Positions 34,162 through 64,000 of a stretch of 64,000 nt of DNA are shown here, piece after piece. The stretch's first letter is position 1, and each line of letters begins with the position of its first letter. Source of the stretch: Stappia taiwanensis. Lineage in GTDB: Bacteria; Pseudomonadota; Alphaproteobacteria; Rhizobiales; Stappiaceae. The position numbers were made by a program, and so were the translations under genes. The stretch is from the NCBI RefSeq assembly GCF_014635285.1, contig NZ_BMCR01000005.1, positions 1 through 64,000 on the forward strand, written 5' to 3'. Under the pieces are notes generated by a model that searched no databases, was not told the DNA's origin, and saw nothing but the letters and a program-made list of their open reading frames with translations.

Positions 34162-34183
34162 CCTTCCTCCCGGCGAAGCCCGG

Positions 34184-36793: not shown

Positions 36794-36886
36794 ACCGGAC
36801 CTCGCTTGTTCTCCTTCGAGGCTGCCAGCAGCCCCTGGCAAAAACAATTCACCCAGTTTGACAACGGCTACCGAATAGGAAGTAGG

Positions 36887-42916: not shown

Positions 42917-43214
42917 GAGATCCCCCCAAAGCCAACAACAGAACCTGACAGGTTCCATCATTGACTTTGCCGCCAGCGGGTAAATCCCCACCCGTGCAAG
43001 TCGTCTTCATCCAAATGGCTGCAACGTTCTAATCGGCTTCCCCAAAAGGACAGGCCGGGAACGGCTTGCTCTTCCCCCTTTGAAAACCTTGACAGCCACC
43101 TCCCCCACTCGGGGAATACGGTCACTCCAATGGATAGGCGTTTCGCCCCCATTGCCTCTTTCACCCGGGAGCGGTTCAAAGACACTATCGGCGAGAAAAA
43201 CCGGAGTGTTACCG
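42917..43214. promoter_or_regulatory. divergent promoter region of the exopolysaccharide locus
   Basis: These 298 bases separate the divergent wza-like operon and the plus-strand glycosyltransferase gene and must hold promoters for both. A TTGACA box lies at 43089-43094 on the plus strand; the best -10 candidate (gaatac, 43114-43119) has an overly long 19-base spacer. No operator palindrome was found. Confidence 0.4.
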
Positions 43215-45885: not shown

Positions 45886-47097
45886 TTAAGAAACGAAGCT
45901 TCCCGCATCAAGGAATGCCCTGAGATCGGCATGGAGCCGAGCCACCCCTTCCCGGGCTCTGGCCACTGTCGCGCGCAACTCCGTCGGATCGACCGCATTG
46001 GTCGCGACCTGATCGATCAGCCCGGCAATCTCCTCAGGTGACGTACGCCGGTCGGAGACAAGAAACGCCTCCCGATGGGTGGAGCGAAAGAACCCCTCCA
46101 CCTTGCTGTCCCACCCCAGACCGACGACGGGGACGCCCAGCGCATAAGCGGCGATACAGGCATGCAGGCGATGCGCGGCCATCGCATCGAAGCTGTCGAT
46201 TGTCGAAATCAGCTCCCGGGCGGTTTGCGGGCGAGGCGCGACCTGAACTACCCCCGAGGCCATCATCTTGCGAACGGACGGCACCGCCAGGATCGCCTCA
46301 AGAAAGGCCGCGTCCTCGCGTGCACCATTGCAAAACAGGGTGATGCACCAGCCCCGGGTCTCCAGAACCTGCATCACCTCGCAATAATCGCGAATACGCA
46401 GCATCGGAATGTCGCGCGCCGGCTTGTCCGCGTGCCGCCGCAGGATCGCCGGGCTGGTCACGCACAGCCCCGCATTGTTGCCGACACAGCGCTCCAGCGG
46501 GCGCGGCAGGTCCAGGGAACCCGCCAGCAACCCCGGGTCGGGCACCAGGTGGGGACGCTCGCCTTCGGGGAAGTGGCGCATCCAGTTTTCCCGCGCGATC
46601 TCGTCGCGGACCGAAACATGCACCAGATCCAGGTTTCGCAGCCGTCCGAACAGCGCAGCGGCCTCCGACGACCAGGTCCGGCTCACCCCCACCGCATAGA
46701 TCGCCAGGGGGCGGTTTTGTCGCTGGACACAGCCCAGCACCGCACCGACCTTGAGCGGAAAATTCAGATCGTCATCCTGAAACAGATTGCCGCCACCGAC
46801 CACCACCACGTCCGCCGATGCGATCCGGGCGCTCCACTCGGGCAACACGGCTTGAAGCCTGCGGTCCAGCACCTTGCGCACCACGAAACGGCGCACCGGC
46901 GCCGGCATCCAGCCGAGCAGCGCCAGAACGTACCCCCTCGCCCGGACGGCGGTTCCGACCTCGCTGCGCCCCGCCAGATCGACCGTCTCCACCTCCACAT
47001 CGTCGCCGCACTGGCGCAAGGCCGCCTCCAGACAGCTGGCAAGCAATCCGTCGCCAAGGTTCTCGCTATGCTTGACGTTGAACAGAACGAGCTTCAT
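45886..47097 (-). CDS. polysaccharide pyruvyl transferase family protein
   Basis: 403 residues with the layout of the polysaccharide pyruvyltransferase family: KLVLFNVKHSENLGDGLLAS at the N-terminus, DVVVVGGGNLFQDDDLNFPL, then IYAVGVSRTW and the second-domain FDAMAAHRLHACIAAYALGVPVVGLGWDSKVEGF. Family members add a ketal pyruvate to a sugar with PEP, or act on related glycans. Its ATG overlaps the stop of the Wzy-like gene (ATGA), so the two are coupled. A final acidic pyruvate group on the polysaccharide is an inference. Confidence 0.85.
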   Translation of the reverse strand: MKLVLFNVKHSENLGDGLLASCLEAALRQCGDDVEVETVDLAGRSEVGTAVRARGYVLALLGWMPAPVRRFVVRKVLDRRLQAVLPEWSARIASADVVVVGGGNLFQDDDLNFPLKVGAVLGCVQRQNRPLAIYAVGVSRTWSSEAAALFGRLRNLDLVHVSVRDEIARENWMRHFPEGERPHLVPDPGLLAGSLDLPRPLERCVGNNAGLCVTSPAILRRHADKPARDIPMLRIRDYCEVMQVLETRGWCITLFCNGAREDAAFLEAILAVPSVRKMMASGVVQVAPRPQTARELISTIDSFDAMAAHRLHACIAAYALGVPVVGLGWDSKVEGFFRSTHREAFLVSDRRTSPEEIAGLIDQVATNAVDPTELRATVARAREGVARLHADLRAFLDAGSFVS

Positions 47098-48572
47098 TCG
47101 CCGCGCCCCTCCGTTCCGCCACCGCTTGCCCAGGCCGCGCCGTTCAAGGGCACCAGAGGCGGCACCCGTGCATCAGTTTGCTGTCGTTCGGTCGCCGAGC
47201 GGGACAACGCCGCCGCCCCGCCGGCCAGGAGGTAGGGAAGCAACCCCAGATCGTAGACGGTGCCGGAAATCATCGCGGTCGTCAGGCTCGCGGCGAACCC
47301 GGCCTTCGCCGCCCGCACCGCGCGGATCGCGTCCCCCGCTCCCTGATCGGCACCAAGGACACCTGTCGGGGCCATCAGAACGGAACCAGCGAACACCGCG
47401 AACAGCAATGCCCCGGCAACCCCGATGTTGGACAGCAGCACCAGCAGAAAACTTGATGCCCGCGAGCTGCCGAGACCGGCTCCGATCCAGGAGGTATCGA
47501 GAAACGTCTGGAAGGCCGCCGCGTTCCACTGGAACCGTTCCCGCCCCGACTGGCTGTTGGCCTTGGAGAACAGGATCTCGTCCAGATACGCCTCGATCCG
47601 ATCGACGAACTGCGGCATCGCGACCATGACAACGAGCACGGCCAACAGCGCGACGATGCCCCCCATCACAAGAAAGCTCGGACGCCCGTTGCGCGGGTTG
47701 GTCAGCGAGGCGCCAAGGGACCGGACGCCCAGGAAGCCGACGACAACCACAAGCCCGGCAAGTCCCGTTGCCGAGGTGGACAAGAGCACCGCCAGGAACA
47801 GGGCGCCGGCAAGAAGCCCCACATAGGCGTTCCGCAGCCGGTCGAGCCACAGGCTGGCGACCACCGCGAACAGGGCAAGGGTATAGGACGCAAAGGCGGA
47901 GGCTTCGGAAAAGGTGCCGGAGATCCGCTTCAGCCCGCCTTTCACGGAATCGGTCAGCATCCCGTAGTTCGCCGTCCGGAAGAAATCCATCAGCCACGCG
48001 GTTCCGGAGAAGTAGGTGAGGATATCGGCCAGAGCGAAGGCCAGATCGATGGCGGCAAGCACCAGCATGGCATTGATCAGCGCGGTGACCGAACGTGTCT
48101 GCCGAAAGAAGGTGTAGCTGGCGGCAAAACACAAAAGACCGCCGATGGCATAGACCGATTGGGTGATATTGCTCGCGGTCGGCCGCAAGGGCACCATGGA
48201 TATGAAATTGCGTGAGCCGAACATGCGCGTGACCGATATGGTCTCGGTCATGCCGGCGAACAAACGCGGCAGGAAGATCCCGCTCAATACGCCGAAGACG
48301 GTGAGAAGCAAGAGCCAGAAGCCCGGCCCCGGCGGCGCGAAGGCGGAGAAGATCGGCCCCTCCCCGTAGCCCGTGTACATGCGCAGAAAGAAGAAGACGA
48401 GAAACAAGTTCGGCACCAGGATGGACGCGCCGCCCAGCGCCGGCAGGCTGATGGCCGCCGCCGTCCCGAACACCGTCGACACAGCCATGAACAGGAACAT
48501 CCAGTGTGGCCGCCGGCCCATCAGAAGCAGACCGAGTGCAAATGTCAGGATTCCCATGACTTGCAGGCTCAT
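47094..48572 (-). CDS. Wzy-like O-antigen/exopolysaccharide polymerase
   Basis: 492 residues with about 11 hydrophobic helices and a large central loop (about 250-350), the layout of O-antigen ligase/polymerase-type proteins. The residues LLSNIGVAGALLFAVFAGS and SQSGRERFQWNAAAFQTFLDTSWIGAGLG are of the Wzy_C type, where a conserved Arg/Gly-rich segment precedes the loop. GGGGAGCATC lies before the ATG. It would polymerise lipid-linked repeat units in the periplasm and matches the Wzx and Wzc-like proteins in the locus. Confidence 0.82.
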   Translation of the reverse strand: MSLQVMGILTFALGLLLMGRRPHWMFLFMAVSTVFGTAAAISLPALGGASILVPNLFLVFFFLRMYTGYGEGPIFSAFAPPGPGFWLLLLTVFGVLSGIFLPRLFAGMTETISVTRMFGSRNFISMVPLRPTASNITQSVYAIGGLLCFAASYTFFRQTRSVTALINAMLVLAAIDLAFALADILTYFSGTAWLMDFFRTANYGMLTDSVKGGLKRISGTFSEASAFASYTLALFAVVASLWLDRLRNAYVGLLAGALFLAVLLSTSATGLAGLVVVVGFLGVRSLGASLTNPRNGRPSFLVMGGIVALLAVLVVMVAMPQFVDRIEAYLDEILFSKANSQSGRERFQWNAAAFQTFLDTSWIGAGLGSSRASSFLLVLLSNIGVAGALLFAVFAGSVLMAPTGVLGADQGAGDAIRAVRAAKAGFAASLTTAMISGTVYDLGLLPYLLAGGAAALSRSATERQQTDARVPPLVPLNGAAWASGGGTEGRGE

Positions 48573-48746
48573 GCCATGATGCTCCCCGATGGACTTTCAG
48601 GATCGTAGCATGGCCACCTACAGGTGTAATTCCATCGCCCCATAAGCATTTTGAAGTAGCGGCATACCCGAATTCACGAATATGCTGAGATTTACACGGA
48701 GGAATAGAATTTGGCTTGATTTTCCACTGACATGGAAGCCGTCACC

Positions 48747-49604
48747 ATGCACAACCTCCCCCCTTCCCCCACCGCCTGCATTCGCGATGCGATTGCCGGC
48801 GCCACACTCCTGCTGGCCACCCTGTCGGCTTCCGCCAATGAGGCGGGACCAGACACCGGCGACGCGCTCGATTTCGAGCGCATGACCCTCAGTTTCGATG
48901 AGCCCTTCGACACGCTGGATGTCTCGGCCTGGGGGCCGGGCACGCGCTGGATCGCACACACGCCCTGGTCCGGAGACTTCGGCGGCGCCCGGTTTTCCAA
49001 CCCCAAGGAAGGGTTCCCGTTCACCCTGCTGAACGGTGTCTTGCGGATCGAGGCGCGGCGGACCTCGACCGGCGTCTGGGCCTCCGGCCTGCTCGCCTCG
49101 GTCGACACCAAGGGGCGCGGCTTCAAGCAGCAATACGGTTACTTCGAGATGCGGGCGCGCCTGCCCCTGGGCGATGGTGTCTGGCCGGCGTTCTGGCTGA
49201 TCGGCATCGACCGGTCGAAATACACCGCCGAGATCGATGTCCTGGAGTATTACGGTTACAAGCCGGACGGCTATTCCGCCTCCGTGCATGTCTGGCACCG
49301 GGACGGGCGGCACCACTCGGACTTCGACCGCATCAAGGTCTTTCCCGAGAACGATCCGGAGGAGTTCAACACCTACGGCGTCAAGGTCGATGCCCAGTTC
49401 ATCCGCATGTATTTCAATCGCAAGCTGATGTGGAAGACCAAGACGCCGCCGGAAGCCCGCCAGCCGATGTTCATGCTGCTGAATCTGGCGCTGAAGGAAA
49501 ACACCCGAACCTTCCCGGTGCCCAACCCGTCCTTCATGTACGTGGACTACGTCAAGGCCTTCCGCCTTGATGACCAGACCGCCCCGTTGCAGGTCAAGAA
49601 GTAG
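48747..49604 (+). CDS. secreted glycoside hydrolase family 16 (ExoK-like glycanase)
   Basis: 285 residues from the ATG at 48747, which has GGAAG 8 bases upstream; ATG 48732 is the alternative. A signal-peptide-like stretch (AIAGATLLLATLSASANEA) is followed by a GH16 beta-jelly-roll. The catalytic motif E162-I-D-V-L-E167 contains the nucleophile and acid/base Glu residues. Blocks GLLASVDTKGRGFKQQYGYFEMR and WPAFWLIGI are typical. Such glycanases trim beta-1,3/1,4 glucan-type chains, and ExoK processes succinoglycan, so it probably cuts the polymer made here. It is divergent from wzy. Confidence 0.93.
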   Translation: MHNLPPSPTACIRDAIAGATLLLATLSASANEAGPDTGDALDFERMTLSFDEPFDTLDVSAWGPGTRWIAHTPWSGDFGGARFSNPKEGFPFTLLNGVLRIEARRTSTGVWASGLLASVDTKGRGFKQQYGYFEMRARLPLGDGVWPAFWLIGIDRSKYTAEIDVLEYYGYKPDGYSASVHVWHRDGRHHSDFDRIKVFPENDPEEFNTYGVKVDAQFIRMYFNRKLMWKTKTPPEARQPMFMLLNLALKENTRTFPVPNPSFMYVDYVKAFRLDDQTAPLQVKK

Positions 49605-49670: not shown

Positions 49671-50111
49671 TCAGGCTGCCGGGCTTTCCGCGCGTCGAGG
49701 ATCGGGGATGGGGAAGATCAGGTCATAGGCCCAATTGAAGATGAAGGCGTAGACCAGATAGAACAGCGCGAAGAACAGATCCATCTTGAAGGCCTGAAGC
49801 AGGCTGATGTCCAGATACCAGGCAATGAACGGCATCAGCAGTGCCAGCAGCCCCGCTTCGAACAGGATGGCGTGGCCCACCCGTACCGCCAACGACTTGC
49901 GCACATCGCCTGCAATCCGCAGCATCGCGTGGTCGAACAGGAAATTGTAGACGTAGTTCCACAGCGTCGCGATGGTCGCGCTGACAAGAGCGACAAGGCC
50001 GATGGCCTCCAGCGGGACACCGAAGACCCAGCCACCCAGTGGCGCGATGGTAAACAGTCCGATGATCTCGAAGCTGAGGGCGTGACGGATCCGATCCCCG
50101 GTGGTTCGCAT
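49671..50111 (-). CDS. PACE-family (AceI-like) small multidrug efflux protein
   Basis: 146 residues with four hydrophobic helices arranged as two repeated pairs: RIRHALSFEIIGLFTIAPLG...ALVSATIATLWNYVYNFLFD, then RVGHAILFEAGLLALLMPFI...FKMDLFFALFYLVYAFIFNW. This duplicated R-x-x-H-A-x-x-F-E pattern is the bacterial transmembrane pair domain of proteobacterial antimicrobial compound efflux proteins. ATG 50111 follows AGGGGAAC; the longer frame to 50330 is not needed. It is divergent from the assembly-line genes and could be a self-resistance pump for their product, though that is inference. Confidence 0.85.
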   Translation of the reverse strand: MRTTGDRIRHALSFEIIGLFTIAPLGGWVFGVPLEAIGLVALVSATIATLWNYVYNFLFDHAMLRIAGDVRKSLAVRVGHAILFEAGLLALLMPFIAWYLDISLLQAFKMDLFFALFYLVYAFIFNWAYDLIFPIPDPRRAESPAA

Positions 50112-50351
50112 ATGGGTTCCCCTGTGTTGCTTCGGGTCGTCCCGAACGAATTGTCCCGAGCCGGGGGAGGTCGTCCTCACTTGCCGCGCCAATATAAGGT
50201 CGCGATCCGGCCATGCAAGGGCGGAGGTCGGCGAAGGGGCGTTCCGCACGTCTCCCTCTTTGCAACCATACCAACGCGGTTCGAGCGGTGGCCGCAGGTC
50301 GTCCCGAAGCGTCGGGACACGCCCTCCCATCGGCAGGACATCCTACAGGCC

Positions 50352-50382: not shown

Positions 50383-50595
50383 CAAACTCGGCCTTTCGGT
50401 CATTTCCCGCCCTTCGTCCAGCCATCGATCAACGCCGCCTACCCACGGTACATCCCTTTGATCATCTATCCATTTTTGGCCCACGTGAAAAATTGTCGGA
50501 GAGGAAAACCGCAAGTGTAGAGGGTGAGCGGCCATCTCGCTCTCTCCCTTGGCCCGCACCGACCGGTGCGGGGAAACCGGGCCCGGAGCATGGAT

Positions 50596-52530
50596 ATGAA
50601 CCGCAAGGATCCCCTCACGGCGCAGCACGATCCGTTTTGCGTACCGCGTTCAAATCACATGGTTGCGTATGACCGCAACCGCAGTCTTCAGGACGTCTTT
50701 CACCAACACGCCCGCGCGCAGCCCGACCGCGTCGCCCTGACCTTCGGCGACCGGCCCTACGGTTACCACGAGGCCGACCGTCTCTCCTCCGCCCTCGCCC
50801 ACCGGCTGCTGGAGCTCGGGGTGCGCAAGGGCGACGTGGTCGGCCTGTTCCTTCCCCGGTCCGCGGAAACGGTGATCGCCATGCTGGCGATCCTGAAGGC
50901 CGGAGCCGCCTACACCCCGATCGACCCGGTCTATCCGGCTGAGCATCTGGACTATGTGATCGGCGATTGCGCGCCGAAGGTGATCTTCACCACCGCCACG
51001 GATCACGCGAAGCTTGCGGCCATTGCCAGTGTTCGCGGCAAGATCGTCGAACTCGGCAACGCGCTGCGCCAGATCGAGGACCGCGACATTGAACCACCCT
51101 CTGTGCCCGTCGGCGGCGGCGACATGGCCTACGTCATGTACACCTCCGGCTCCACCGGCCGGCCCAAGGGGGTGATGATCCCGCACCGGGCCATTGCCGA
51201 CCTGGCGCTTGAGCAAAGCTACGTCAATGTCGGTCCGGGCGATGTCGTCCTCAATGCGGCGACCATCTCCTTCGACGGCGCCACCATGGAGATCTGGTGC
51301 GCGCTGCTGAACGGCAGCACCCTCGCAGGCTTGCCCGACCCCACCTTCTCCGTTTCCCGGCTGTGCGACGTCATCCGCCGGGAAAACGTGAACTTCGTCG
51401 TCCTGACGACAGGTCTTTTCAACCTGTTCGCCGATTCCGTCGACGGGTCGATGCCGAGCCTGACGCACGTTCTGTTTGGCGGCGAGGTCGCCTCGGCGAC
51501 CCATATCCGCAAGTTCCACCGGATCTATCCGCACTGCCGCGTCACCAACGGCTACGGCCCGACCGAAGCCACCACCATGGTCACCTGCTTTTCGCCGCCG
51601 CCCGACTTCGCCGGCACGGATGTGCCGATCGGCAAGGCTATTGCCCGCACCGGAATTCACATCATTGGCGAAGGCAACCGGGAACTGTCCGATGGCGAGG
51701 TCGGTGAGCTTGCCATTTCCGGCGACTGTCTCGCTCTCGGCTATTTCAAACGACCCGACCTGACCGATGAGAAGTTCAGGACGGTCGAGACCCGGCAGGG
51801 GCCGCGCCGCTGCTATCTGACCGGCGACCTCGCCCGGGTCGAACCCGATGGCACGATCACGTTCAAGGGGCGTGCCGACCGCCAGGTCAAGATCGACGGC
51901 AAGCGGATCGAACTGGACGAGATCGAAGCGGCCCTGCGGCGGGATCCGGAGATCGACGATGCCATCGTCTCCTGCCAGGCGACGCCGACCTCGAAACGGA
52001 TCGTCGCCTATCTGAAGCCACGGGACGCCGGCACGTCGCATCCGGCATTCGCCAGCGCGGCCCTGACCCGGCTGCGCGCAGCGGTGCCCGCCTTCATGGT
52101 GCCCAGCGCCGCAGTCGCCGTTGACGCCTTTCCCATGACCCAGGCGGGCAAGGTCGATCGGGCAAGGCTTGCCCCCATTTCCTTGCAGGATGATGCACCG
52201 GCCTCGCCGAGGGCGTCCTCCCGCAGCCCCATCGAGGCAACGATTGCCCGCCTCTGGTCCGATGTCCTTGGCCGTGACGCGATCCCGTTGGATCGTAATT
52301 TCTTCGATCTTGGCGGCACCTCGCTGCAGTTGATGCGGGTGCATGTCGGGCTGGAGGGCGCGCTTCAGCGCAGCGTCGATGTGATGGCCCTGTTCACGCA
52401 TCCGACCATTCGCGGCCTCGCGAATTTTCTTGAAGGCAGGGGACCGGTCGCCCGTTCGGCCATGACCGCAACGCACCGCGCCGCCATCCGCCGCCAGTCC
52501 CTTTCGCAGATCAGCAGGAACAGGTCATGA
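50596..52530 (+). CDS. stand-alone NRPS loading module, A-PCP
   Basis: 644 residues. The adenylation domain spans about 15-500, with A3 YVMYTSGSTGRPKGVMIPH, A5 NGYGPTEATT, A7 CYLTGDLA, A8 GRADRQVKIDGKRIELDEIE and A10 QAGKVDRARL. The Asp of FDGATMEIW and the Lys of A10, which bind the amino acid, are present, so the substrate is probably an alpha-amino acid; my hand-read code is D-G-M-L-L-G-G-T-M-K, which I cannot assign. The carrier domain has S576 in FFDLGGTSLQL. Start 50596 has GGAG 7 bases away; 50590 and a GTG at 50524 are alternatives. The stop overlaps the next ATG. Confidence 0.9.
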   Translation: MNRKDPLTAQHDPFCVPRSNHMVAYDRNRSLQDVFHQHARAQPDRVALTFGDRPYGYHEADRLSSALAHRLLELGVRKGDVVGLFLPRSAETVIAMLAILKAGAAYTPIDPVYPAEHLDYVIGDCAPKVIFTTATDHAKLAAIASVRGKIVELGNALRQIEDRDIEPPSVPVGGGDMAYVMYTSGSTGRPKGVMIPHRAIADLALEQSYVNVGPGDVVLNAATISFDGATMEIWCALLNGSTLAGLPDPTFSVSRLCDVIRRENVNFVVLTTGLFNLFADSVDGSMPSLTHVLFGGEVASATHIRKFHRIYPHCRVTNGYGPTEATTMVTCFSPPPDFAGTDVPIGKAIARTGIHIIGEGNRELSDGEVGELAISGDCLALGYFKRPDLTDEKFRTVETRQGPRRCYLTGDLARVEPDGTITFKGRADRQVKIDGKRIELDEIEAALRRDPEIDDAIVSCQATPTSKRIVAYLKPRDAGTSHPAFASAALTRLRAAVPAFMVPSAAVAVDAFPMTQAGKVDRARLAPISLQDDAPASPRASSRSPIEATIARLWSDVLGRDAIPLDRNFFDLGGTSLQLMRVHVGLEGALQRSVDVMALFTHPTIRGLANFLEGRGPVARSAMTATHRAAIRRQSLSQISRNRS

Positions 52531-55500
52531 CCGAAACCACCGGACGGGACAGGTCCCCGCAAGTCGGCGATGCGCTTGCAGGAACAGGCGCCATCGCCAT
52601 CGTCGGCATGTCGGGGCGCTTCCCCGATGCGCCTTCGGTCGATGATCTGTGGCGGATGGTCCGCGACGGACGCCACGCCTTCGCGCCCCTCACCCCGGCA
52701 GAGATCGAGGACGCCTTTACCGATGAGGAGCGGGCATCGCCCGACTATGTGGCAGCCCGACCGCATCTTGAGGGAATCGAGGAGTTCGACGCCGAGTTCT
52801 TCGGCATGTTTCCCCGCGAGGCCTCCTTTACCGATCCTCAGCACCGCATCTTTCTGGAGATCTGCTGGGAAGCTCTGGAGGGGGCCGGCTGCGATCCCAA
52901 GACCTATCCCGGCCTGATCGGGGTTTTCGCCGGTGCCTCGATGCCCACCTACCTGTTGAACAATGTGTTGTCCGACCGGGCAAAGGTCGAAGACTTCACA
53001 TCCAACTATCAGATCGGCTGTTTCAATCAGTCGATGGGCGGCCTGCCGGACGCACTCGCCACCCGGGTCGCCTACAAGCTCGACCTGCGCGGCCCCGCCG
53101 TCACCATGTTGTCGGCCTGCTCCACCTCGCTGGTCGCGGTCACCCAGGCCTGTCGGCAGTTGCAGGCCTATGGCTGTGACATGGCGCTTGCCGGCGGCGT
53201 GTCGATCACCATCCCCCAGCGGCGCGGCTACATCTATCAGGAAGGCGGCATGGCCTCCGCCGACGGCGTCTGTCGGCCGTTCGACGCCGATGCCTCCGGC
53301 ACGGTCTTCGCCAGCGGCGCCGGCGTGGTGCTGCTCAAGCGCTATGACGATGCGGTGGCCGAGGGCGACCGGATCTTCGCGGTCATTCGCGGCTGCGGCC
53401 TCAACAACGACGGCGCCGACAAGATTGGCTTCACCGCGCCCAGCATCCAGGGCCAAGCGGATGCCATCGCCATGGCGCTCGCGGAGGCGGAGTGCGACCC
53501 GGCCTCGGTCGCCTATGTGGAATGCCACGGCACCGCGACCCCCTTGGGCGACCCCATCGAATTCAACGGCCTCAACACGGTCTTTTCCGACCCTGAGCTG
53601 CCACGCGGAAACTGCGCCCTCGGCTCGCTCAAGAGCAATACCGGGCACATGGACTGCGCCGCCGGCGTCTCCAGCCTGATCAAGGCGGCACTCGCCCTCC
53701 ATCACCGCACCCTGCCGCCCATGGCCAACTACGCGGCCCCCAATCCGCGCATTGCTCTAGATGACAGCCCGTTCCGCATCCTGACCGAAGCGGAACCCTG
53801 GCCGGACAGCGGCTGCCCACGCCGGGCCGGCGTCAGCTCCTTTGGCGTCGGCGGCACCAACGCCCATGTGGTGCTGGAAGAAGCGCCGGCGGTCTCCGCA
53901 CCGGCCCTTGACGAGGACGGTTCCCGTCCGCTGATCCTGCCGCTGTCCGCTCGCACCCCGGAAGCGCTTGAGGCGATGCGCCACCGGCTGGCGGAGCATC
54001 TGCGCGCCCAGCCTGAGTTGCCTCTCTCGCAGGTCGCCCGCACCCTCCAGAGCGGCCGCCGCGCCTTCGCCCGGCGCACCGCCATCGTCGCCTCCTCCAC
54101 CGAACAGGCGGTCGAGCGCCTCTCCGCCGCCCGGGTGGAGGTCACCGCCGCCGAGGACAGCCCGCCTCCGGTCGTTTTCATGTTCCCCGGCCAGGGCGCC
54201 CAATATGTGGGCATGGCCGCCGCCCTTTATGCCTGCGAACCGGTGTTCGCTCTTTGGATCGACCGGGGCGCGGAGCTCTTGAAGCCCTCGCTCGGGCTCG
54301 ATCTGCGCGATTACCTCTGCCACACCGGCCCCGTGCCCGAAGCGATGGCCGAGACCCAGCGGGAAACCCGCATCGCCCAGCCCTGCCTCTACATCATCGA
54401 GCATGCGCTGGCACAGCTCTGGATGAGCCGGAAGTGTCGGCCCGATGCGATGATCGGCCATAGCGTCGGCGAGTTCGTCGCCGCGACCCTCGCCAATGTG
54501 ATCGGCTTCGAGGACGGGCTGGCCCTTGTCGCCGCACGCGGCCGTCTGATGCAGGACCTGCCCCAGGGCGCCATGGTGTCGGTGCGCGCCGCTGCCGATG
54601 TCATCGCCCCGCATCTGCGGGACGGTGTGGAAATCGCGGCAATCAACGCCCCAACGCTCAACGTCATCTCCGGCACCTTCGAAGCAATCGACGCCACCTG
54701 CGCCGCGCTGGAAAAGGCGGAGATCGCCTTCAGCCGCCTGCACACCTCCCATGCCTTCCATTCGGCGATGATGGACGGCGCCGCCGAGGCCCTGCGCGCG
54801 GAAACCGCCAAGGTCACCTACGGCACCGCGACGATCCCCTACATTTCCTGCGTCACCGGCACCTGGCAGACGGACGAACAGGGCGCCTCGCCCGACTACT
54901 GGGCGCGCCATTGCCGCGACGCGGTGCGGTTCGCCGACGGGCTTTCCACCTTGTGCGCCGACCGCAAGCCGGTGCTGATCGAGGTCGGTCCCGGACGGAC
55001 CCTGTCGGTCTTCGCCGCCCAGACCGTTGCCCGCACGGATCTGGCCGCCGTTGTCCAGTCGCTGCCCGAGCATGACCGGGCGGCAGAGGCCGCCGAAACC
55101 CTCGCCCAGGCCCACGGCAAGCTCTGGGCGGCCGGCTGCACCCTGCCCTTTCCGGAGCTGCCGGCCGGCACCGGCAAGACCTGGCTGCCGACCTACCCGT
55201 TCCAGCGCCAGCGTCACTGGATCGACGCCCCCGCCCCGACCCGGCGGGCCGGCGATGGGTCTGCCACTGCCACCGCCATCCCGGCCCCGACCATGCCGGA
55301 CGGCGCAGCGGATGCGGCTGCGACCGCATCGGTAAACATACTGCCCGATCAGGGAGTTGCCTTCATGAGTGGAATCGATACTTCAGCCGCCGACCGCATT
55401 CCCGGCCTTGAGACGACCCTGCTGGAATTGCTGACGGACATGTCCGGCGAGGACCTCGGACCCGAGGACCGGACCGCAAGCTTTCTCGAACTCGGCTTTG

Positions 55501-58500
55501 ATTCCCTGTTCATCGGCCAGTTTGCCCAGAAGCTGGAAAAGCAGTTCAAGGTGAAGCTCTCGTTCCGGGAGCTGTTGAGCGACATTCCCAGTGTCGCCGA
55601 TCTTGCCGCCCATCTCGATCACGAGCTGCCGCCGGAGGTGGCGCAGCCCGCTCCTGCCGCAGCACCGGCTGCCGCTGCGACAATGGCTCCGGCCCAGCCG
55701 GCAATGACCTCCCCGTCCGGTCCGGCTCCCGCTGCCAACGGCTCGGCAAACGGCGTCGAAACAGTGATGCACATGCAGATGCAGATGATGCAGGCCGTCT
55801 TTGCCCAGCAGTTGCAGGCGCTGCAGGGCACCGCTACTCAGCCGTCGGCCACCCCCCAACTCGCGCAGCCGACAAGCCCGGTGCCCGTCGCGCCCACCTC
55901 GGCCGCAGCGGCAGACGCCACCCCCGCCCCGGCCACGACGACAGCGGGCGACGACACCGAGATCGGCGCCGACCGCATCAAGATCTACCGCCCCGGCACC
56001 CGGTCGGGCGCGCCGGAAATGACGCCGGAGAAGATCCGCTACATTGAGGGTTTGATTTCCGCCTACTCAGCCCGCAATGCCGGATCGAAGGCCTTTACCG
56101 ACGCCAATCGGCCGCATCTGGCCGACCCGCGCACCGCATCCGGGTTCCGTCCCGACTGGAAGGAAATGGTGTTCCCGGTCGTCTCCGACCGCTCCAAGGG
56201 ATCGCGTATCTGGGACATCGACGGCAACGAATACATCGATCTGGTCAACGGCATGGGCCAGACCGCCTTCGGTCACGCTCCCGATTTTGTCGTCGAGGCG
56301 ATCAAGGCCCAGCTCGATGACGGCTTTGCCATCGGTCCGCAAACGCCGCTGGCCGGCGAGGTCGCAAAGCTGATCTCACAGATGGTCGGTCTGGAGCGCG
56401 TCACCTTCTGCAATACCGGCTCCGAAGCGGTGATGGCGGCCATGCGCGTTGCCCGTGCCGTCACCGGGCGCGACAAGATCGTGGTCTTCGCCAACGACTA
56501 CCACGGCCAGTTCGACGAGGTGCTGGTCAAGGGCCGCAACCGGCTCGACAAACCGGTGGCGCTGCCGATTGCTCCGGGCATTCCCGCAACCTCGGTCGGC
56601 AACATGATCGTGCTGAAATACGGCGCGCCGGAGAGCCTCGACTGGGTACGCGCAAACGCCGACGACCTGGCCGCCGTGATCATCGAACCGGTGCAAAGCC
56701 GGCATCCGGACCTGCGCCCGGTGGAGTTCGTGTGCGAGTTGCGGACCCTGGCTACCGAAGGGGACTATGCCCTGGTCTTCGACGAAGTGGTGACCGGCTT
56801 CCGCGTCCACCCCGGCGGCATGCAGGCGATCTGGGGCATCAAGGGCGACATGGCCACCTACGGCAAGGTCGTCGGCGGGGGCATGCCCATCGGCATCCTG
56901 GCCGGCGACAGCCGCTATATGGACGCGCTTGATGGCGGCTGCTGGCGCTACGGCGACGACAGCGCGCCGATGACCGCCCCGACCTTCTTCGCCGGCACTT
57001 TCGTGCGCCATCCGGTGGTGCTGGCAGCCTGCCGCGCCGTGTTGCAGCACATTCAGGGCGAAGGCGCCGCGCTCTATGGCCGGGTTGCCGAACGGACCGG
57101 ACGGCTGGTGACGGAGATCGAGGACGATCTGGCCGCCCGCGGTATCCAGAGCACGCTGCCTGGCTACACCAGCTGGTTCACCCCCCGCTTTGCGGACGCC
57201 GACCCGCTCGGTGCCCTGATGTTCCCGGAGTTGCGGATGCGCGGCATTCATGCGTTGGAGGGCTATCCTTGCTTCCTGACGACGGCTCACAGCGAGGATG
57301 ACTTCCAGGCGATCGCCGCCGCCTTCCGCGACAGTGCCGACTCGCTTCAAGCAGTCGGCATTCTTGCTCCGGCCGGAGGCGCCGCCGCGCCCGGCTGGCG
57401 CGGGACGGATGCCGGCAGCTCCCCCTCGCTGCCGGCATCCACGCCCCTTACCGAAGCACAGCAGGAGGTCTGGCTGTCGGCCCAGGCCGGCGACGAAGCC
57501 TCCTGCGCCTTCAATGAATCCTTCTCGCTCACCCTCGACGGCACGCTTGACGAGACCGCCTTCCGCAAGGCGCTCGCAACCATAGTTGCCCGGCATGACG
57601 CCCTGCATATCCGCTTTACTCGCGACGGCAGCCGGTTCGAGTTCATTCCGGAGTTTACGCTGGAGCTGCCGCTGGTCGATCTGTCCGGCGAAGAGGATCC
57701 GGAGGTCGCCCGGCTCGATCTGGTCGCCCGGGAAGCACACATTCCGTTCGACCTGACCAATGGGCCGCTGGTGCGCGGCGCCCTGTTGCGGCTGGCGGCG
57801 GACCGCCATGTGCTGGTGATGACCGCCCATCACATCATCTGCGACGGCTGGTCGATCAACGTGATCATCGAGGAGTTGGCGGCGGTCTACAGCGGCCTGA
57901 TGAGCGGTGAGGCCACCGAGCTGCCCGCCGCCCTGTCCTACGCCACCTACGCCCGCGAACTTGCCCCCGGCGCCCAGCCCAGCGCAGCAACAGAGACCTT
58001 CTGGCTCGACCAGTACCGCACCGTTCCGCCGCTGCCCGACCTGCCGCTCGACCGGGATCACCCCGAACGGCGCAGCTTCGCCGGCGGCACCCGCACCGGC
58101 TTCATCGACAAGGACAGCTACAAGGCACTGAAAAAGGCGGGCGGACGCTCCGGCGCCACCTTGTTTTCCACCCTGCTGGCCACCTTGCAGGTCATGGTGG
58201 CGCGCCTTTCCGGCAGCGACGATATCGTCATCGCCGTTCCTTCCGCCGGCCAGAGCCTCGTCGGCGACCAGACCCTCGTCGGCCATTGCGTGAACCTGTT
58301 GCCGCTGCGCCAGTCGGTGGCCGGAGAAACCTCCTTCGCGGCCCATCTGAAGGAGACCCAGCAGATCGTCCTTCAGGCGTTCGAGCATCAGGACTACACC
58401 TATGGCACGCTGGTGCGGAAACTCGGTGTCGAGCGCGATCCCAGCCGGCTGCCGCTGACGGAGATCCAGTTCAACCTGGAGCGCCTCAGCGGCATGACCG

Positions 58501-60632
58501 AATTCACCGGCTTGCGCGCGACCATCGAGCCCAATGGCAAGGCCTTCTCGAATTTCGACATGTTCTTCAACATGATCGAGAGCGCCGAGGGCATCCGCAT
58601 CGACGTCGACTACAATGCCGACGTTCTCGACCCGGCCACCGTCGACCGCTGGATCGGCCATTTCGCCGCACTGGTCTCGGAAATCGCCGCGAATATCGAA
58701 ACCCCGATCAACGACCTCGCCCTGATCCGTCCGGCCGAACTGCAATGGCTGCGCGAGGATCTGAACCAGAGCGACCACACTTATGAGGAGGACGCCTTCG
58801 TCCACACGCTGGTCTCGCGCCAGGCGGCGGCGCATCCCGGCAAGCCGGCGGTCGTCCATGACGGCGACGCGCTGACCTATGGCGATCTGGAGGCCCGCTC
58901 GAACCAGCTCGCCCGCCACCTCAAGGAGGCACTCCCCGGCCGGCCGGCACGCATCGCCCTTCTGCTCGACCGCTCGCCGGCGATGCTGATTGCGCTGCTG
59001 GCGGTGATGAAGGCCGGTCATACCTATGTACCGCTCGACCCGGAGCACCCGAAACCCAGACTGGCGCAGACGCTGGAGGCGGCCCGCGTTGCCTGCCTTC
59101 TCTGCGACAGCGAGAAGGGCGCAGCACTGGCCGGGGCAGAGACAACGGTGATCCGCCTCGATACCGACCGGCCGGCCATCGACCGGCAGAACCGCGCCGC
59201 GCTGGCCGCGACGGAGGCCTCCTCCGCCGCCCCGGCGTACATCATCTTCACCTCCGGCTCGACAGGCACCCCCAAGGGGGTGGAGGTCTCGCACCGGGCA
59301 CTGACCAACTTCATGCAGTCCATGGCGCGCGAGCCCGGCTTTTCCGCCTCGGACATCCTTCTGGCAGTGACCACCGTGTCCTTCGACATCGCCGCGCTGG
59401 AGCTCTACCTGCCGCTCATCGCCGGGGGAACGGTCGTCCTCGCCGACCGTGAGCAGGTGCAGGACGGCTTCGCCCTGGTGGATCTGGCCGAGGCCTGCGG
59501 CGCGACCGTGATGCAGGCGACGCCGACCCTGTGGCGCATGCTGGTCGAGGCGGGCATGCCGGCCCGGCCCGGGCTGAAGATCCTGTGCGGCGGCGAACCG
59601 CTCCCCCAGGACCTGGCCATGACGCTCTTCGGCCTCGGCAGCGAGTTGTGGAACATGTACGGCCCGACCGAGACCACCATCTGGTCGTCGGCAAAACGGA
59701 TCGACGATGCCCAGGCACCGGTGACCATCGGCCAGCCGATCGCCAACACCCGGCTCTACATCGTTGATCGTGCCAACCGGATTGCCCCGATCGGTGTGCC
59801 CGGCGAGCTGTTGATCGGTGGCGATGGCCTCGCCAACGGCTATTTCGACCGGCCGGACCTGACGGAAAAGGCTTTCGTTCACCTCGACCTGGGCACAGGT
59901 CAACGCGAACGGCTCTACCGCACCGGAGATGTGGGCAAGCGCCTTGCCGATGGCGCACTGCTCTTGCAGGGGCGCATCGACGCCCAGATCAAGCTGCGCG
60001 GCTTCCGGATCGAACCGGGAGAAATCGAAGCCGTGATGGCAAGCGCCCCGGGAGTGCGCCACTGCGCGGTGGTCACCGCCCGCAGCCCGAAGGGCGACAC
60101 CCAACTGGTCGGCTACGTGGTGCCGGAGAGCCCGGCAACACCTCCCGCCTCCGACGATCTTGCCGCCCATGCCAGGGAACGGCTTCCGGCTCATATGGTG
60201 CCGGCCTTCTGGACCATCGTGGAGGCGCTGCCGCAGACCGGCAATGGCAAACTCGACCGCAAGGCGCTGTCAAAGCGCGGACTGCCCCACTCAAAGGTCG
60301 CCGTGGAGCGAACCGCGCCGCGCACGCCGCTGGAGGGGCAGATCGCGAAAATCTGGCAGGAAATACTGGCGGTTCCCGAGATCGGCGTGGACGACAACAT
60401 CTACAGCCTTGGCGCGGACTCCTTGAGCATCTTCCGGATCGCCGCGCGCCTTTTGGAGGCCGGCCTCGGCCTGGAGGCCAAGCATATCCTGCGCCACCCC
60501 TCCATCGCCGAGCTCGCCGCCTTCGCTGAAACCCATGACCTTCAAGGTTCGAACGATACCGACGCGCCAGCCCCGTCCTTGCGGGACTTCCGAGGGCAGC
60601 GCCGGCGCAACACCAGCCTCGGAGCCGCATGA
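52527..60632 (+). CDS. hybrid PKS-NRPS, KS-AT-ACP-aminotransferase-C-A-PCP
   Basis: 2701 residues. KS (about 18-450) has C198, H334 and H374. AT (about 548-860) has S646 in GHSVGE and H742-A-F-H, the malonyl signature. ACP1 carries S993. After an Ala/Pro linker comes a PLP class III aminotransferase (about 1160-1610) with K1447 and D1419. The C domain (about 1635-2065) has HHIICDG (1768-1774). A is about 2085-2600, with D-I-L-Q-L-G-M-I-W-K, one residue from the glycine code. PCP2 has S2632. It lacks KR, DH and ER, so the beta-keto group is transaminated. Couplings are ATGA at both ends. Confidence 0.95.
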   Translation: MTETTGRDRSPQVGDALAGTGAIAIVGMSGRFPDAPSVDDLWRMVRDGRHAFAPLTPAEIEDAFTDEERASPDYVAARPHLEGIEEFDAEFFGMFPREASFTDPQHRIFLEICWEALEGAGCDPKTYPGLIGVFAGASMPTYLLNNVLSDRAKVEDFTSNYQIGCFNQSMGGLPDALATRVAYKLDLRGPAVTMLSACSTSLVAVTQACRQLQAYGCDMALAGGVSITIPQRRGYIYQEGGMASADGVCRPFDADASGTVFASGAGVVLLKRYDDAVAEGDRIFAVIRGCGLNNDGADKIGFTAPSIQGQADAIAMALAEAECDPASVAYVECHGTATPLGDPIEFNGLNTVFSDPELPRGNCALGSLKSNTGHMDCAAGVSSLIKAALALHHRTLPPMANYAAPNPRIALDDSPFRILTEAEPWPDSGCPRRAGVSSFGVGGTNAHVVLEEAPAVSAPALDEDGSRPLILPLSARTPEALEAMRHRLAEHLRAQPELPLSQVARTLQSGRRAFARRTAIVASSTEQAVERLSAARVEVTAAEDSPPPVVFMFPGQGAQYVGMAAALYACEPVFALWIDRGAELLKPSLGLDLRDYLCHTGPVPEAMAETQRETRIAQPCLYIIEHALAQLWMSRKCRPDAMIGHSVGEFVAATLANVIGFEDGLALVAARGRLMQDLPQGAMVSVRAAADVIAPHLRDGVEIAAINAPTLNVISGTFEAIDATCAALEKAEIAFSRLHTSHAFHSAMMDGAAEALRAETAKVTYGTATIPYISCVTGTWQTDEQGASPDYWARHCRDAVRFADGLSTLCADRKPVLIEVGPGRTLSVFAAQTVARTDLAAVVQSLPEHDRAAEAAETLAQAHGKLWAAGCTLPFPELPAGTGKTWLPTYPFQRQRHWIDAPAPTRRAGDGSATATAIPAPTMPDGAADAAATASVNILPDQGVAFMSGIDTSAADRIPGLETTLLELLTDMSGEDLGPEDRTASFLELGFDSLFIGQFAQKLEKQFKVKLSFRELLSDIPSVADLAAHLDHELPPEVAQPAPAAAPAAAATMAPAQPAMTSPSGPAPAANGSANGVETVMHMQMQMMQAVFAQQLQALQGTATQPSATPQLAQPTSPVPVAPTSAAAADATPAPATTTAGDDTEIGADRIKIYRPGTRSGAPEMTPEKIRYIEGLISAYSARNAGSKAFTDANRPHLADPRTASGFRPDWKEMVFPVVSDRSKGSRIWDIDGNEYIDLVNGMGQTAFGHAPDFVVEAIKAQLDDGFAIGPQTPLAGEVAKLISQMVGLERVTFCNTGSEAVMAAMRVARAVTGRDKIVVFANDYHGQFDEVLVKGRNRLDKPVALPIAPGIPATSVGNMIVLKYGAPESLDWVRANADDLAAVIIEPVQSRHPDLRPVEFVCELRTLATEGDYALVFDEVVTGFRVHPGGMQAIWGIKGDMATYGKVVGGGMPIGILAGDSRYMDALDGGCWRYGDDSAPMTAPTFFAGTFVRHPVVLAACRAVLQHIQGEGAALYGRVAERTGRLVTEIEDDLAARGIQSTLPGYTSWFTPRFADADPLGALMFPELRMRGIHALEGYPCFLTTAHSEDDFQAIAAAFRDSADSLQAVGILAPAGGAAAPGWRGTDAGSSPSLPASTPLTEAQQEVWLSAQAGDEASCAFNESFSLTLDGTLDETAFRKALATIVARHDALHIRFTRDGSRFEFIPEFTLELPLVDLSGEEDPEVARLDLVAREAHIPFDLTNGPLVRGALLRLAADRHVLVMTAHHIICDGWSINVIIEELAAVYSGLMSGEATELPAALSYATYARELAPGAQPSAATETFWLDQYRTVPPLPDLPLDRDHPERRSFAGGTRTGFIDKDSYKALKKAGGRSGATLFSTLLATLQVMVARLSGSDDIVIAVPSAGQSLVGDQTLVGHCVNLLPLRQSVAGETSFAAHLKETQQIVLQAFEHQDYTYGTLVRKLGVERDPSRLPLTEIQFNLERLSGMTEFTGLRATIEPNGKAFSNFDMFFNMIESAEGIRIDVDYNADVLDPATVDRWIGHFAALVSEIAANIETPINDLALIRPAELQWLREDLNQSDHTYEEDAFVHTLVSRQAAAHPGKPAVVHDGDALTYGDLEARSNQLARHLKEALPGRPARIALLLDRSPAMLIALLAVMKAGHTYVPLDPEHPKPRLAQTLEAARVACLLCDSEKGAALAGAETTVIRLDTDRPAIDRQNRAALAATEASSAAPAYIIFTSGSTGTPKGVEVSHRALTNFMQSMAREPGFSASDILLAVTTVSFDIAALELYLPLIAGGTVVLADREQVQDGFALVDLAEACGATVMQATPTLWRMLVEAGMPARPGLKILCGGEPLPQDLAMTLFGLGSELWNMYGPTETTIWSSAKRIDDAQAPVTIGQPIANTRLYIVDRANRIAPIGVPGELLIGGDGLANGYFDRPDLTEKAFVHLDLGTGQRERLYRTGDVGKRLADGALLLQGRIDAQIKLRGFRIEPGEIEAVMASAPGVRHCAVVTARSPKGDTQLVGYVVPESPATPPASDDLAAHARERLPAHMVPAFWTIVEALPQTGNGKLDRKALSKRGLPHSKVAVERTAPRTPLEGQIAKIWQEILAVPEIGVDDNIYSLGADSLSIFRIAARLLEAGLGLEAKHILRHPSIAELAAFAETHDLQGSNDTDAPAPSLRDFRGQRRRNTSLGAA

Positions 60633-63439
60633 TGACAACGATGCTCGTCTCCCCGTCCCGCACCGGGACCCCGCACAAGGTCGTCGCCCGTTTCCCCTGC
60701 TCGCAGTCGCAGTTGCGCTGGTGGATCCTCGATCAGCTGGAACCAGGAAACCCGGCCTATAACATCGCCATTTGCTGGACGCTGAGGGGGGCCTTCAACG
60801 CCGGCTCCATCGAGGCCGCCTTCGCCTGGGTGATCGAACGCCACGAAATCCTGCGAACCCGGTTCACCGATGCCAATGGCCGGCCGATGCAGGAGGTGGT
60901 CGACAAGGTCCCCTTCAAGATGTCGGTGATCGACCTCAGGCGGGTCACGGAAGAACAGCGCGACAAGCGGATGAAATCCATCAGCGCCTTCATGGCCAAG
61001 GCCCCGTTCGATCTGAACCTGCCGGGGCTGATCCGCGCCTCGCTGCTCCTGCTCGACAATGACCATGCGGTGCTCCTGACCACCGTGCATCATATCGTCT
61101 TCGACGGCTGGTCAATCCGGGTTCTGGGCCGGGAAATCGGCGAAATCGCCTCCGCCCTCGATGCCGGGCGGGAACCGGAGCTGCCCGAACTGCCATTGCA
61201 ATACGGCGACTACACCCTGTGGCAGGAGGAGTATCTCAAAAGCCGGAAGTTTCACGCCGAGACCGCGTTTTGGCGCGACAAACTGGGCGATGGCCATTAT
61301 TTCGAAGTGCCCCCCGACAAGCCGCGTCCGGCTCTCAGGACCAACCACGGCGAGGTGGTCTCCATCCGCAAGCCGCTGGACTTCGGCACCCGCATGGAGG
61401 CCGCCGCGCGCGATCTTCAGGTCTCCCAGTTCGTTCTCGGCATCGCCGTTCTCAGCGCCCTTCTGCATCGCTTCACCGGCGAGGAGACCATCCTTGTTGG
61501 TGCCCAGATCGCCGGGCGTGACGACGTCGACCTGGAAAACCTCATCGGCGTGTTCATCAACAATCTGATCCTGCGCATCGAGCCGCCGGTACAAGGCGCC
61601 TTCAGCGATCATGTCGCCGCGGTCCACGAGACCGTCGCGGCAGCGATCGATCACCAGAAGATGCCCTTCAACAAGCTGGTCGAAACCCTCAATCCGCCGC
61701 GCGATGCCTCTCGCAATCCGCTGGTGTCGGTCAATTTCAACCTGCAGAAGGCATTTCTGGAAGACCGGACCTATGGCACGTTCGACCTTACCGGCGCCCC
61801 ATCGCTCTCTCCCGGCGCCATCTACGACCTGAACTTCTTCATGGTCGGCCGTCCGGATGGCTGGCGCATGTCGCTTGAGTACAACACCGATCTGTTTGAG
61901 CGGCAGACCGTCGAAACCCTTCTCGATCTCTGGCAACAGACCTATGACCGCGTCCTGTCCGAACCGGCAGCCCCGCTCGCGTCCCTGCCCACCGCGAGCC
62001 GCCAGGCCGCCACGCAAGCTGGCACCGATGCAGGGCTGAAACGACTGCTGGAAGCGCACCCCGGCGTATCGGAAGCCTGCGTGATCGAGGCCGAGGCCGG
62101 ACCGCCGCGCGCCTTCGTCGTTCCCCGGGGCGACTACCCCGAACCGATCGACCAACTGCCGCAGACCCTGCAGCGGGACTTGCGGGGGCAGATCGCCGCC
62201 ATTGGCCGGATGCCGGACATCAGCGTTCTTCTGAACCTGCCACGCCTCGCGTCAGGCGCCGTCGACCGCAAGGGCCTGACGGCGGTCGCCGCCGCTCCTC
62301 CCCCCCTCGCTGAACCGACGGAAGACGCGGGAACAACGCCGCGAGCGCCCGCCTCCTTCACGCCCGACCCGGCACATATCGATGCCCTGGCAGAGATCTG
62401 GCGGGACGTGCTGGAGGTCGGCACGGTGACCCCGGAGGATGATTTCTTCGCCCTCGGCGGCCATTCCCTGCTGGCCCTGCGGATGCTCGCCCGTGTCCGT
62501 CAGCGGTTCGACATCAAGCCGGATCTGGCGATGCTGTTTCAGGCGCCGCAACTGCAAAGCTTTGCGGCCGCAGCCTTCGCCCCCACGTCCACCCCCAGCG
62601 TACCCAGCGCGCCGCAGGAGACCACAAGGACCAATCCCTGGAAACTGACAACCTATCGGAGCGGCACCGGTCCCGCCGCGATCTACACCATCAATCATCC
62701 CTTCATCTACTATCGAATGACCCACGACCTGCCGGCGGAAGCCTCGGTCTATAATCTCAACATGTTCGAGACCGAGATCGACGACGAATTGCGCGCGCGC
62801 TCCTTCCTCGACATCGCGTCGAGTGCGGTCGACGCCATGCGGATCACCGAGACCACCGGGCCGATTGCCCTGCTCGGGCTCTGCGTGAACGGAACCCTTG
62901 CCGTCGAGATGGCCCGGATCCTGCGCGAGCGAGGACATGAGGTTTCCTTCGTCGGCGTCGTCGATAGCTGGGCGCCGAACTACGGCAGCACGGTGCCGCT
63001 GGATGTGCGCGCACGGGTGCGCTCCGGCAAGCGTTTCCGCCGCGTCAGCTATTTCGCAACCCGCCTGCTCACAGGAGAGATCCCGCTCATCGCCTTCCTG
63101 AAGCACTTCCGGCTGACGCTGGCCCTGATGAGCAAGCTCGGCATCAAGACCGGTGAACTGACGCCAGAGGAACGCGCGAACCGTGACGTAACGAACCTGC
63201 TGGTGGACGCTGCCCGCGACCACGGCACCGCGCCGCCGCTCGATGCCTCCGTCCACCTCTTCCGCAGCCAGGCGGTGCATCCGCTCGCCGCGAAGGTCCA
63301 CTTCGGCTATATGCTGGAAGACGGTGTCAAAGGCACCGTTCACAATCTGGAAGGTTGGCATGAATATGCGCTGACCGACAGCGGCATTCGCCGGCTTGCA
63401 ACCATATTGCGCGAGACCCTCGATGCCGACCGCCCATAA
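60629..63439 (+). CDS. terminal NRPS, C-(remnant A)-PCP-TE with Cys thioesterase
   Basis: 936 residues. The condensation domain (about 15-455) has HHIVFDG with H154, H155 and D159. Residues about 467-552 keep only the C-terminal end of an adenylation domain, ending ASGAVDRKGL, where the canonical Lys of NGKxDR is Ala; A1-A8 are missing. The carrier domain has S613 in ALGGHSLLAL. The type I thioesterase (about 650-930) has GLCVNGT with C752 in place of the usual Ser, D779 27 residues later as in SrfA-C TE, and H911. It releases the chain; the PCP needs a trans-acting A domain. GGAGCCGC precedes the ATG. Confidence 0.93.
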   Translation: MMTTMLVSPSRTGTPHKVVARFPCSQSQLRWWILDQLEPGNPAYNIAICWTLRGAFNAGSIEAAFAWVIERHEILRTRFTDANGRPMQEVVDKVPFKMSVIDLRRVTEEQRDKRMKSISAFMAKAPFDLNLPGLIRASLLLLDNDHAVLLTTVHHIVFDGWSIRVLGREIGEIASALDAGREPELPELPLQYGDYTLWQEEYLKSRKFHAETAFWRDKLGDGHYFEVPPDKPRPALRTNHGEVVSIRKPLDFGTRMEAAARDLQVSQFVLGIAVLSALLHRFTGEETILVGAQIAGRDDVDLENLIGVFINNLILRIEPPVQGAFSDHVAAVHETVAAAIDHQKMPFNKLVETLNPPRDASRNPLVSVNFNLQKAFLEDRTYGTFDLTGAPSLSPGAIYDLNFFMVGRPDGWRMSLEYNTDLFERQTVETLLDLWQQTYDRVLSEPAAPLASLPTASRQAATQAGTDAGLKRLLEAHPGVSEACVIEAEAGPPRAFVVPRGDYPEPIDQLPQTLQRDLRGQIAAIGRMPDISVLLNLPRLASGAVDRKGLTAVAAAPPPLAEPTEDAGTTPRAPASFTPDPAHIDALAEIWRDVLEVGTVTPEDDFFALGGHSLLALRMLARVRQRFDIKPDLAMLFQAPQLQSFAAAAFAPTSTPSVPSAPQETTRTNPWKLTTYRSGTGPAAIYTINHPFIYYRMTHDLPAEASVYNLNMFETEIDDELRARSFLDIASSAVDAMRITETTGPIALLGLCVNGTLAVEMARILRERGHEVSFVGVVDSWAPNYGSTVPLDVRARVRSGKRFRRVSYFATRLLTGEIPLIAFLKHFRLTLALMSKLGIKTGELTPEERANRDVTNLLVDAARDHGTAPPLDASVHLFRSQAVHPLAAKVHFGYMLEDGVKGTVHNLEGWHEYALTDSGIRRLATILRETLDADRP

Positions 63440-64000
63440 CGGCCAACCCCATTCCGGCTCCGATGGCGAACCATTCGGGGCCGGCCGCGACAGGCCTCCG
63501 CTGAAGATCGCTATCCTCATCGCGGGATCGGACCGGTTCGAAAACTGGCACCTGATGGCCATGGAGGAGATCAGTCGGGACCCCCGGCTGACGCTTGCCG
63601 CCGTGCTTGTCCATCCGACCCCTTTCGGCAGCAGACGGGCGAGCTTCGGCTTCAGCACGGTCAGCCGGCTGGAACGCCGCATGCTCGCCCGCTCCCCCCG
63701 GTTCCAGCCCCGGGCATTCGATCTCAGGAAGTTGCGGCATGACCCAATGCCGCTCGACCGCGAAACCGGGCACATCGATCCGGAGGCCGCCCGGCGGCTG
63801 ATCGAGGAGACCGGAGCGGATCTCGTTTTGCGCACCACGCCGGAAGGCCTGCCCAACCTTGCCCTCACCGCTCTGCCGCACGGGGAATGGGCCTTCAACT
63901 TTTCCGACGAATGGGGCGCCAACGCGGACTGGTATGGCTACGCCCCGGCGATGCGGCAGGAGCCGACCACACCGCTCGCACTATACGTCCGCCACGAAGG
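63423..64000 (+). CDS. formyltransferase-like protein, partial
   Basis: The reading frame starts at ATG 63423, overlapping the thioesterase gene by 17 bases, and runs off the right edge after about 192 codons. After a polar 27-residue head it reads PLKIAILIAGSDRFENWHLM, and later RRLIEETGADLVLRTTPEGL and LPHGEWAFNFSDEWGANADW. That spacing (Rossmann start, D-L-V-L-R, then GxWxFxxxDE) resembles the N-terminal formyltransferase-fold proteins found in cell-envelope and secondary-metabolite loci. The frame was checked by hand. It may N-formylate the free amine of the product, but the catalytic part is not in the window. Confidence 0.6.
   Translation, partial: MPTAHNGQPHSGSDGEPFGAGRDRPPLKIAILIAGSDRFENWHLMAMEEISRDPRLTLAAVLVHPTPFGSRRASFGFSTVSRLERRMLARSPRFQPRAFDLRKLRHDPMPLDRETGHIDPEAARRLIEETGADLVLRTTPEGLPNLALTALPHGEWAFNFSDEWGANADWYGYAPAMRQEPTTPLALYVRHE

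Follow-up and report, generated by a model that had tools for sequence, protein, structure and literature searches.

The window, by which we mean the whole 64,000-nucleotide stretch of Stappia taiwanensis DNA analysed here (contig NZ_BMCR01000005.1, positions 1–64,000), carries a three-gene PKS/NRPS assembly line on its forward strand. Gene 1 (50524–52530) starts with GTG, and it is joined to gene 2 (52527–60632), and gene 2 in turn to gene 3 (60629–63439), by ATGA overlaps at 52527 and 60629, respectively. The original prediction recognized the three genes and their overlaps correctly, but began the line at 50596, which is an internal ATG of gene 1. The domain string that it gave, A-PCP / KS-AT-ACP-AMT-C-A-PCP / C-PCP-TE, was borne out by Pfam and by a motif scan. 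Pfam matches comprise AMP-binding, AMP-binding_C and PP-binding in gene 1, KS, AT, a class III aminotransferase (AMT), C, A and two PP-binding stretches in gene 2, and C, PCP and TE in gene 3; these matches are far beyond chance (E-values between 1e-39 and 1e-89 for KS, AT, AMT, C and A, and of 5.5e-12 in the case of the TE). All catalytic motifs sought in genes 1 and 2 were found, namely the KS Cys/His/His, GHSVGE and HAFH in the AT, the ACP Ser, the AMT Lys, HHIICDG in the C domain, the A3 and A10 cores in each of the two complete A domains and the Ser of both PCPs.

By a general rule HAFH marks malonyl specificity in AT domains, and the AT of gene 2 is read accordingly. The aminotransferase of gene 2, with its catalytic Lys, is located downstream of KS-AT-ACP, and its best match among solved structures is the AMT of the mycosubtilin synthase MycA (6kfm, 410 bits), followed by glutamate-1-semialdehyde aminomutases at up to 183 bits. 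No KR domain was found in gene 2 (Pfam, E up to 0.001), so that with no KR between KS and AMT a β-keto substrate would be left for amination. Beta-amination after one malonyl extension, as originally proposed, is thus supported by the nearness of the AMT, among solved structures, to that of MycA. In MycA and ItuA, KS/ACP is followed by an internal GSA-type aminotransferase and then by a C domain, and the MycA starter is a fatty acid introduced via an acyl ligase. The window line shares this KS/ACP-AMT-C order and has the MycA AMT as its closest solved relative, but differs in having an amino-acid A-PCP that feeds the KS, in being short and in being linked to exopolysaccharide (EPS) genes. McyE and NdaF, of the microcystin and nodularin systems, have an internal aminotransferase in a module of the KS-AT-ACP-AMT-C-A-PCP type, and resemble the window line in module type; starter, other domains and setting differ.

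No acyl ligase or fatty-acid starter of the iturin (MycA) type was found, and the starter unit is an amino-acid-type A-PCP. An amino-acid starter had been predicted, and this view is strengthened by the retention of both the Asp and the Lys of the specificity code and by the direct fusion of A-PCP to KS seen in 28 of the 85 loci examined (84 fetched loci, L012–L095, plus the window), which also gives good support to gene 1 acting before gene 2. The code of the first A domain, DGMVLGGTMK, appears aliphatic by eye (Val/Ile-like), while being close to none of the reference codes considered, and among its relatives the codes are variously like those for Val, Thr, Pro and Ile. A non-amino-acid starter was considered and rejected, because the Asp and Lys are kept and because codes resembling those for Val, Thr and Pro occur among the relatives. 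The code of the second A domain, DILQLGMIWK, supports the glycine-like next residue of the original prediction, and 57 of 61 such domains in AMT-bearing ORFs are likewise of Gly type, the other four being Val-type (three) and Thr-type (one). The meanings of all these codes were assigned by comparison with reference codes, with the column for position 278 set so that the Thr, Val and Asp codes match the reference ones; Pro then reads DVQF against an expected DVQL. The domain order and codes support a β,γ-diamino unit followed by Gly, and the product is likely to be a diamino-acyl-Gly. What the sequences show directly are the domains, the motifs at the active sites, the codes, and the linkage and co-occurrence of the genes; we infer the chemistry, the Gly and aliphatic specificities (from the codes) and the two-unit length.

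The genes upstream of the line are, by predicted function, a near-complete Wzx/Wzy-type EPS locus, which holds an initiating sugar-phosphate transferase, a Wzx flippase and Wza/Wzc-like export genes. On its left side lie a Crp/Fnr-family regulator (32469–33269, +) and a TIGR04325 methyltransferase (33304–34212, −), followed on the reverse strand by the Wzx-like flippase (34184–35839), the initiating transferase (Bac_transf, 36107–36847), a group 1 glycosyltransferase (36887–38188), a family 2 glycosyltransferase (38194–39135), a Wzz/Wzc-like chain-length determinant (39132–41537) and a Wza-like polysaccharide export protein (41576–42991). A second group 1 glycosyltransferase (43080–44387, +), a LuxR-type regulator (44619–45380, −), a polysaccharide pyruvyl transferase recognized by Pfam (45886–47097, −), a polytopic membrane protein (47094–48572, −) and a GH16 endo-β-glycanase-like protein (48732–49604, +) come next. 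The membrane protein, without a match in Pfam or NCBIfam, is a putative Wzy-like polymerase by position and hydropathy. Between the GH16 gene and gene 1 lies a PACE-type (BTP) efflux gene (49671–50330); PACE pumps export diamines. A GINT1_N-domain protein, which starts in the window (63396–64000, +) and continues to C5:65093, and a GMC oxidoreductase are located downstream of the line. Homologues of the GINT1_N protein are present in all 16 Rhizobiaceae-type loci (L012, L013, L016–L023, L030, L042, L052, L053, L055 and L069), and one is also present in L091, a PKS locus lacking an AMT. A role connected with sugars is hinted at by two loci (L058:23296–25926 and L072:20939–23554), where a family 2 glycosyltransferase is fused to the GINT1_N protein encoded near the PKS. 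The conserved EPS setting had been missed in the original prediction.

Known rhizobial Wzx/Wzy EPS loci resemble that of the window in their initiating transferase, flippase, Wzc/Wza-like proteins, glycosyltransferases, pyruvyl transferase and GH16 protein, but the window locus additionally holds a PKS/NRPS, and a search of open-licence PMC papers found nothing like an EPS-resident PKS/NRPS. Passages of PMC5563371 treat other Pseudovibrio clusters, and the matching passage of PMC5872303 makes no mention of this cluster. The parts are of known kinds, and it is the combination of PKS/NRPS and EPS locus that is absent from the searched literature. The layout of the line is not unique: the exact three-gene arrangement is found in 22 of the 85 loci, window included, and KS-AT-ACP-AMT in 73.

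When the EPS proteins of the window were used as queries, at least one match was found in 43 of 81 KS-bearing loci, and at least one EPS gene is present in 16/16 Rhizobiaceae-type and 12/13 Rhodobacterales-type loci. In annotated plasmid relatives from Rhizobium and Loktanella the line lies inside EPS loci of differing gene order, in L012 and L015 with EPS genes on both sides and in a different order; EPS genes adjoin the line on a Rhodobacter plasmid, and EPS matches were found in an Ensifer record although the region is unannotated. The Loktanella locus L015 also encodes a Peptidase_S15/PepX_C protein annotated as a CocE/NonD hydrolase (L015:4401–6212), and a protein with the same annotation lies close to the line in L014. 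An AMT tree built by a quick method placed 30 alphaproteobacterial rows, including the window, in one group (SH-aLRT 100), 29 of which have EPS matches, and gammaproteobacterial loci from more than one part of the tree are likewise EPS-linked. Neither L051 nor nine of the ten Bacteroidota rows of the tree gave any match to the window EPS proteins. A Pfam tally of the neighbours of Bacteroidota and Planctomycetota loci (135 proteins, 11 loci) contained nine proteins matching GT2, four matching GT1 and two matching flippase families, an enrichment that is weak at most. Among gamma- and betaproteobacterial neighbours, Bac_transf accounts for 6 of 101 proteins, which come from 12 of 15 loci and are what is left of 180 called genes after removal of 30 and then of 49, the latter including all those of L024, L026 and L077.

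Bac_transf was also searched for in 26 genomes. In nine it is single-copy and never more than about 17 kb away from the PKS (in eight within the locus at 1.8–5.4 kb, and for L043, the ninth, some 16 kb away as judged from the coordinates); these genomes are mostly related Gammaproteobacteria and therefore do not represent nine independent events. The remaining 17 genomes have two to seven copies, of which one is in the locus in five cases (the S. taiwanensis genome itself, L064, L060, L039 and L029) and none is in the fetched locus in the other 12. Among controls, EPS matches were found in none of six AMT-less PKS loci (among them L093, which spans just 8.9 kb) and not at the one other PKS locus of the same genome, for which a 20-kb stretch was fetched; the latter carries a second large PKS ORF of the genome (2548 aa, G000:C1:53150–53884).

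We also compared the inheritance of the line with that of the EPS genes. Within the genus, gene 3 and the Wzy-like, Wzx and GT2 genes each occur in the same two of 14 genomes, the chance of one such agreement being 0.011, and within the family gene 3 is present in 2/87 genomes. In three genomes without gene 3, for which 20-kb stretches were fetched, synteny with S. taiwanensis begins only at C5:67.07 kb, so that the right edge of an island falls just past the GMC gene; the left edge was not found. Gamma-glutamyltranspeptidase genes flank the island (30312–32099 of the window and G000:C5:68469–70175), and beyond them lie oligopeptide ABC transporter genes. Across the order, gene 3 matches occur in five of 297 genomes, the query genome, one with a long match (G286, 44 % identity, at G286:C24:134090–136480) and three with matches over the C domain only. 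Across 385 genomes of the class, a gene 3 match was found in two (the query genome and, over the C domain only, G646) and a Wzy-like match in nine (the query genome and eight at 29–35 %), the query genome alone having both, so that class-wide co-occurrence is uninformative. Among plasmids, a Wzy-like protein of at least 51 % identity, with 80 % or more of its length covered, occurs in 15 records, and these are the same 15 Rhizobiaceae records that have gene 3 at a coverage of 80 % or more, with Wzy-like and NRPS matches 1.3–3.3 kb apart; fewer than 15 are independent, because there are near-copies among them (two of one strain, and two of sister strains), and plasmid records, like related genomes, do not count as independent observations. 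Four Rhodobacterales plasmid records also have gene 3, of which only that of Jannaschia (35 %) is among the 60 Wzy-like records listed; it is the only one of the 45 further records listed to have gene 3, with 14 more Wzy-like records lying outside these 60. Distant Wzy-like homologues (28–41 %), including those of eight alphaproteobacterial genomes, occur without gene 3, so that the tie to the line is confined to a close subfamily of Wzy.

The TE of gene 3 has a Cys in place of Ser in its nucleophile motif, GLCVNG. By sequence its nearest solved structures are the TEs of EntF and Pks13, which match weakly (E about 1e-5) and from which it differs in its Cys nucleophile. The Pks13 TE passes an acyl chain to the sugar trehalose. 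By analogy it may offer a precedent, although not a test, for TE transfer to a sugar. The TE of the obafluorin synthetase ObiF1 also has a Cys nucleophile, but it is not among the 11 solved-structure TE matches (E up to 0.01), and a β-lactone is unsupported here.

Our working hypothesis is that the assembly line, resident in an EPS locus, activates an aliphatic amino acid on gene 1, and that gene 2 would extend this starter with malonate, convert the β-keto group to a β-amine on the ACP and add Gly. The chain would then move on to the carrier of gene 3, a gene lacking a functional A domain, and the Cys-type TE would release it, giving an aliphatic 3,4-diamino-acyl-glycine that would most likely be handed, as an amide or ester, to one of the sugars in the exported polysaccharide as a cationic peptide substituent. 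Inheritance with the EPS genes suggests that the product decorates or works with the polymer, and of the accounts considered, use in or on the EPS is, in our judgement, probably the one that best explains the linkage. We identified no enzyme joining peptide to sugar, which counts against attachment, and attachment to the polymer is a step that we only infer. That an EPS-resident PKS/NRPS makes an aliphatic 3,4-diamino-acyl-Gly and passes it by a Cys-TE to the EPS pathway is accordingly advanced as a tentative proposal, about which we are in some doubt.

A somewhat unlikely alternative is that the same diamino-acyl-Gly is a free small molecule, perhaps cyclized by the TE and co-regulated with EPS, for example a biofilm signal or antibiotic. 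The usual products of type I TE domains are free or cyclic molecules, the PACE-type efflux gene adjoins gene 1, and the locus contains LuxR and Crp regulators. The efflux gene has a homologue in the sister genome, but none in the 29 Rhizobiaceae-type and Rhodobacterales-type loci (within their limited flanks), and a free product leaves the linkage with Wzx/Wzy genes over such distances unaccounted for.

The two-unit length of the proposed product depends on how the third module is read. Gene 3 carries an AMP-binding_C stub (residues 474–543) in which the A3 core is absent and the A10 Lys is replaced, so that the module has no A domain of its own and the third residue of the original prediction, in which neither this stub nor the Cys of the TE had figured, is not supported. 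We would read the module of the window as a release station. A three-residue product, with the third carrier loaded in trans by the A domain of gene 1 or another and with the C domain condensing, is distinctly improbable. It could draw on the C motif (HHIVFDG) and PCP Ser, both intact in the window, the HH of which is a point against calling this C domain dead and is shared by the sister genome. The second His is replaced by Gln (HQxxxDG) in all 16 Rhizobiaceae-type loci, while the TE keeps its Cys, and also in six of ten readable Rhodobacterales-type and all three Nevskia-type loci (L024, L025 and L026); the A core is gone in every readable gene 3 of the Rhizobiaceae and Rhodobacterales types. 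Third genes of full C-A-PCP-TE form do occur, with Gly-type codes in L077 (of the same wider AMT group, with a Cys TE) and L094 and a Val-type code in L039, but in the Nevskia-type loci the codes are odd and lack the Lys, possibly through alignment error. The TE Cys is common to the Rhizobiaceae, Rhodobacterales and Nevskia types, and in nine of ten Rhodobacterales-type rows the column of the catalytic His contains a gap or another residue, so that the TE may be different or the alignment faulty there. Least probable is hitch-hiking of PKS/NRPS and EPS genes on one island or megaplasmid without shared function, since, for all the patchy distribution in the family, the island edge and the frequency of EPS genes on rhizobial megaplasmids, EPS genes flank the line on both sides in differing order in L012 and L015, the linkage recurs in gammaproteobacterial loci from different parts of the AMT tree, and it is missing from the six AMT-less PKS loci and the second own-genome PKS locus.

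Returning to transfer of the peptide to the EPS pathway, it is possible to speculate more widely. A widespread class of alpha- and gammaproteobacterial EPS may carry, as a substituent, a nonribosomal and polyketide-extended β,γ-diamino-acyl-glycine added by a PKS/NRPS of its own locus, with the Cys-TEs acting as transferases to sugar, a generalization that we regard as more doubtful than the proposal for the window itself. If true, it would explain why the PKS/NRPS is inherited alongside Wzx/Wzy genes and could be tested simply in ordinary rhizobial strains. It would also join megasynthase chemistry to capsule and EPS assembly, fields normally kept apart, and would predict cationic, non-proteinogenic peptide groups on the EPS of many bacteria from soil, roots and the sea.
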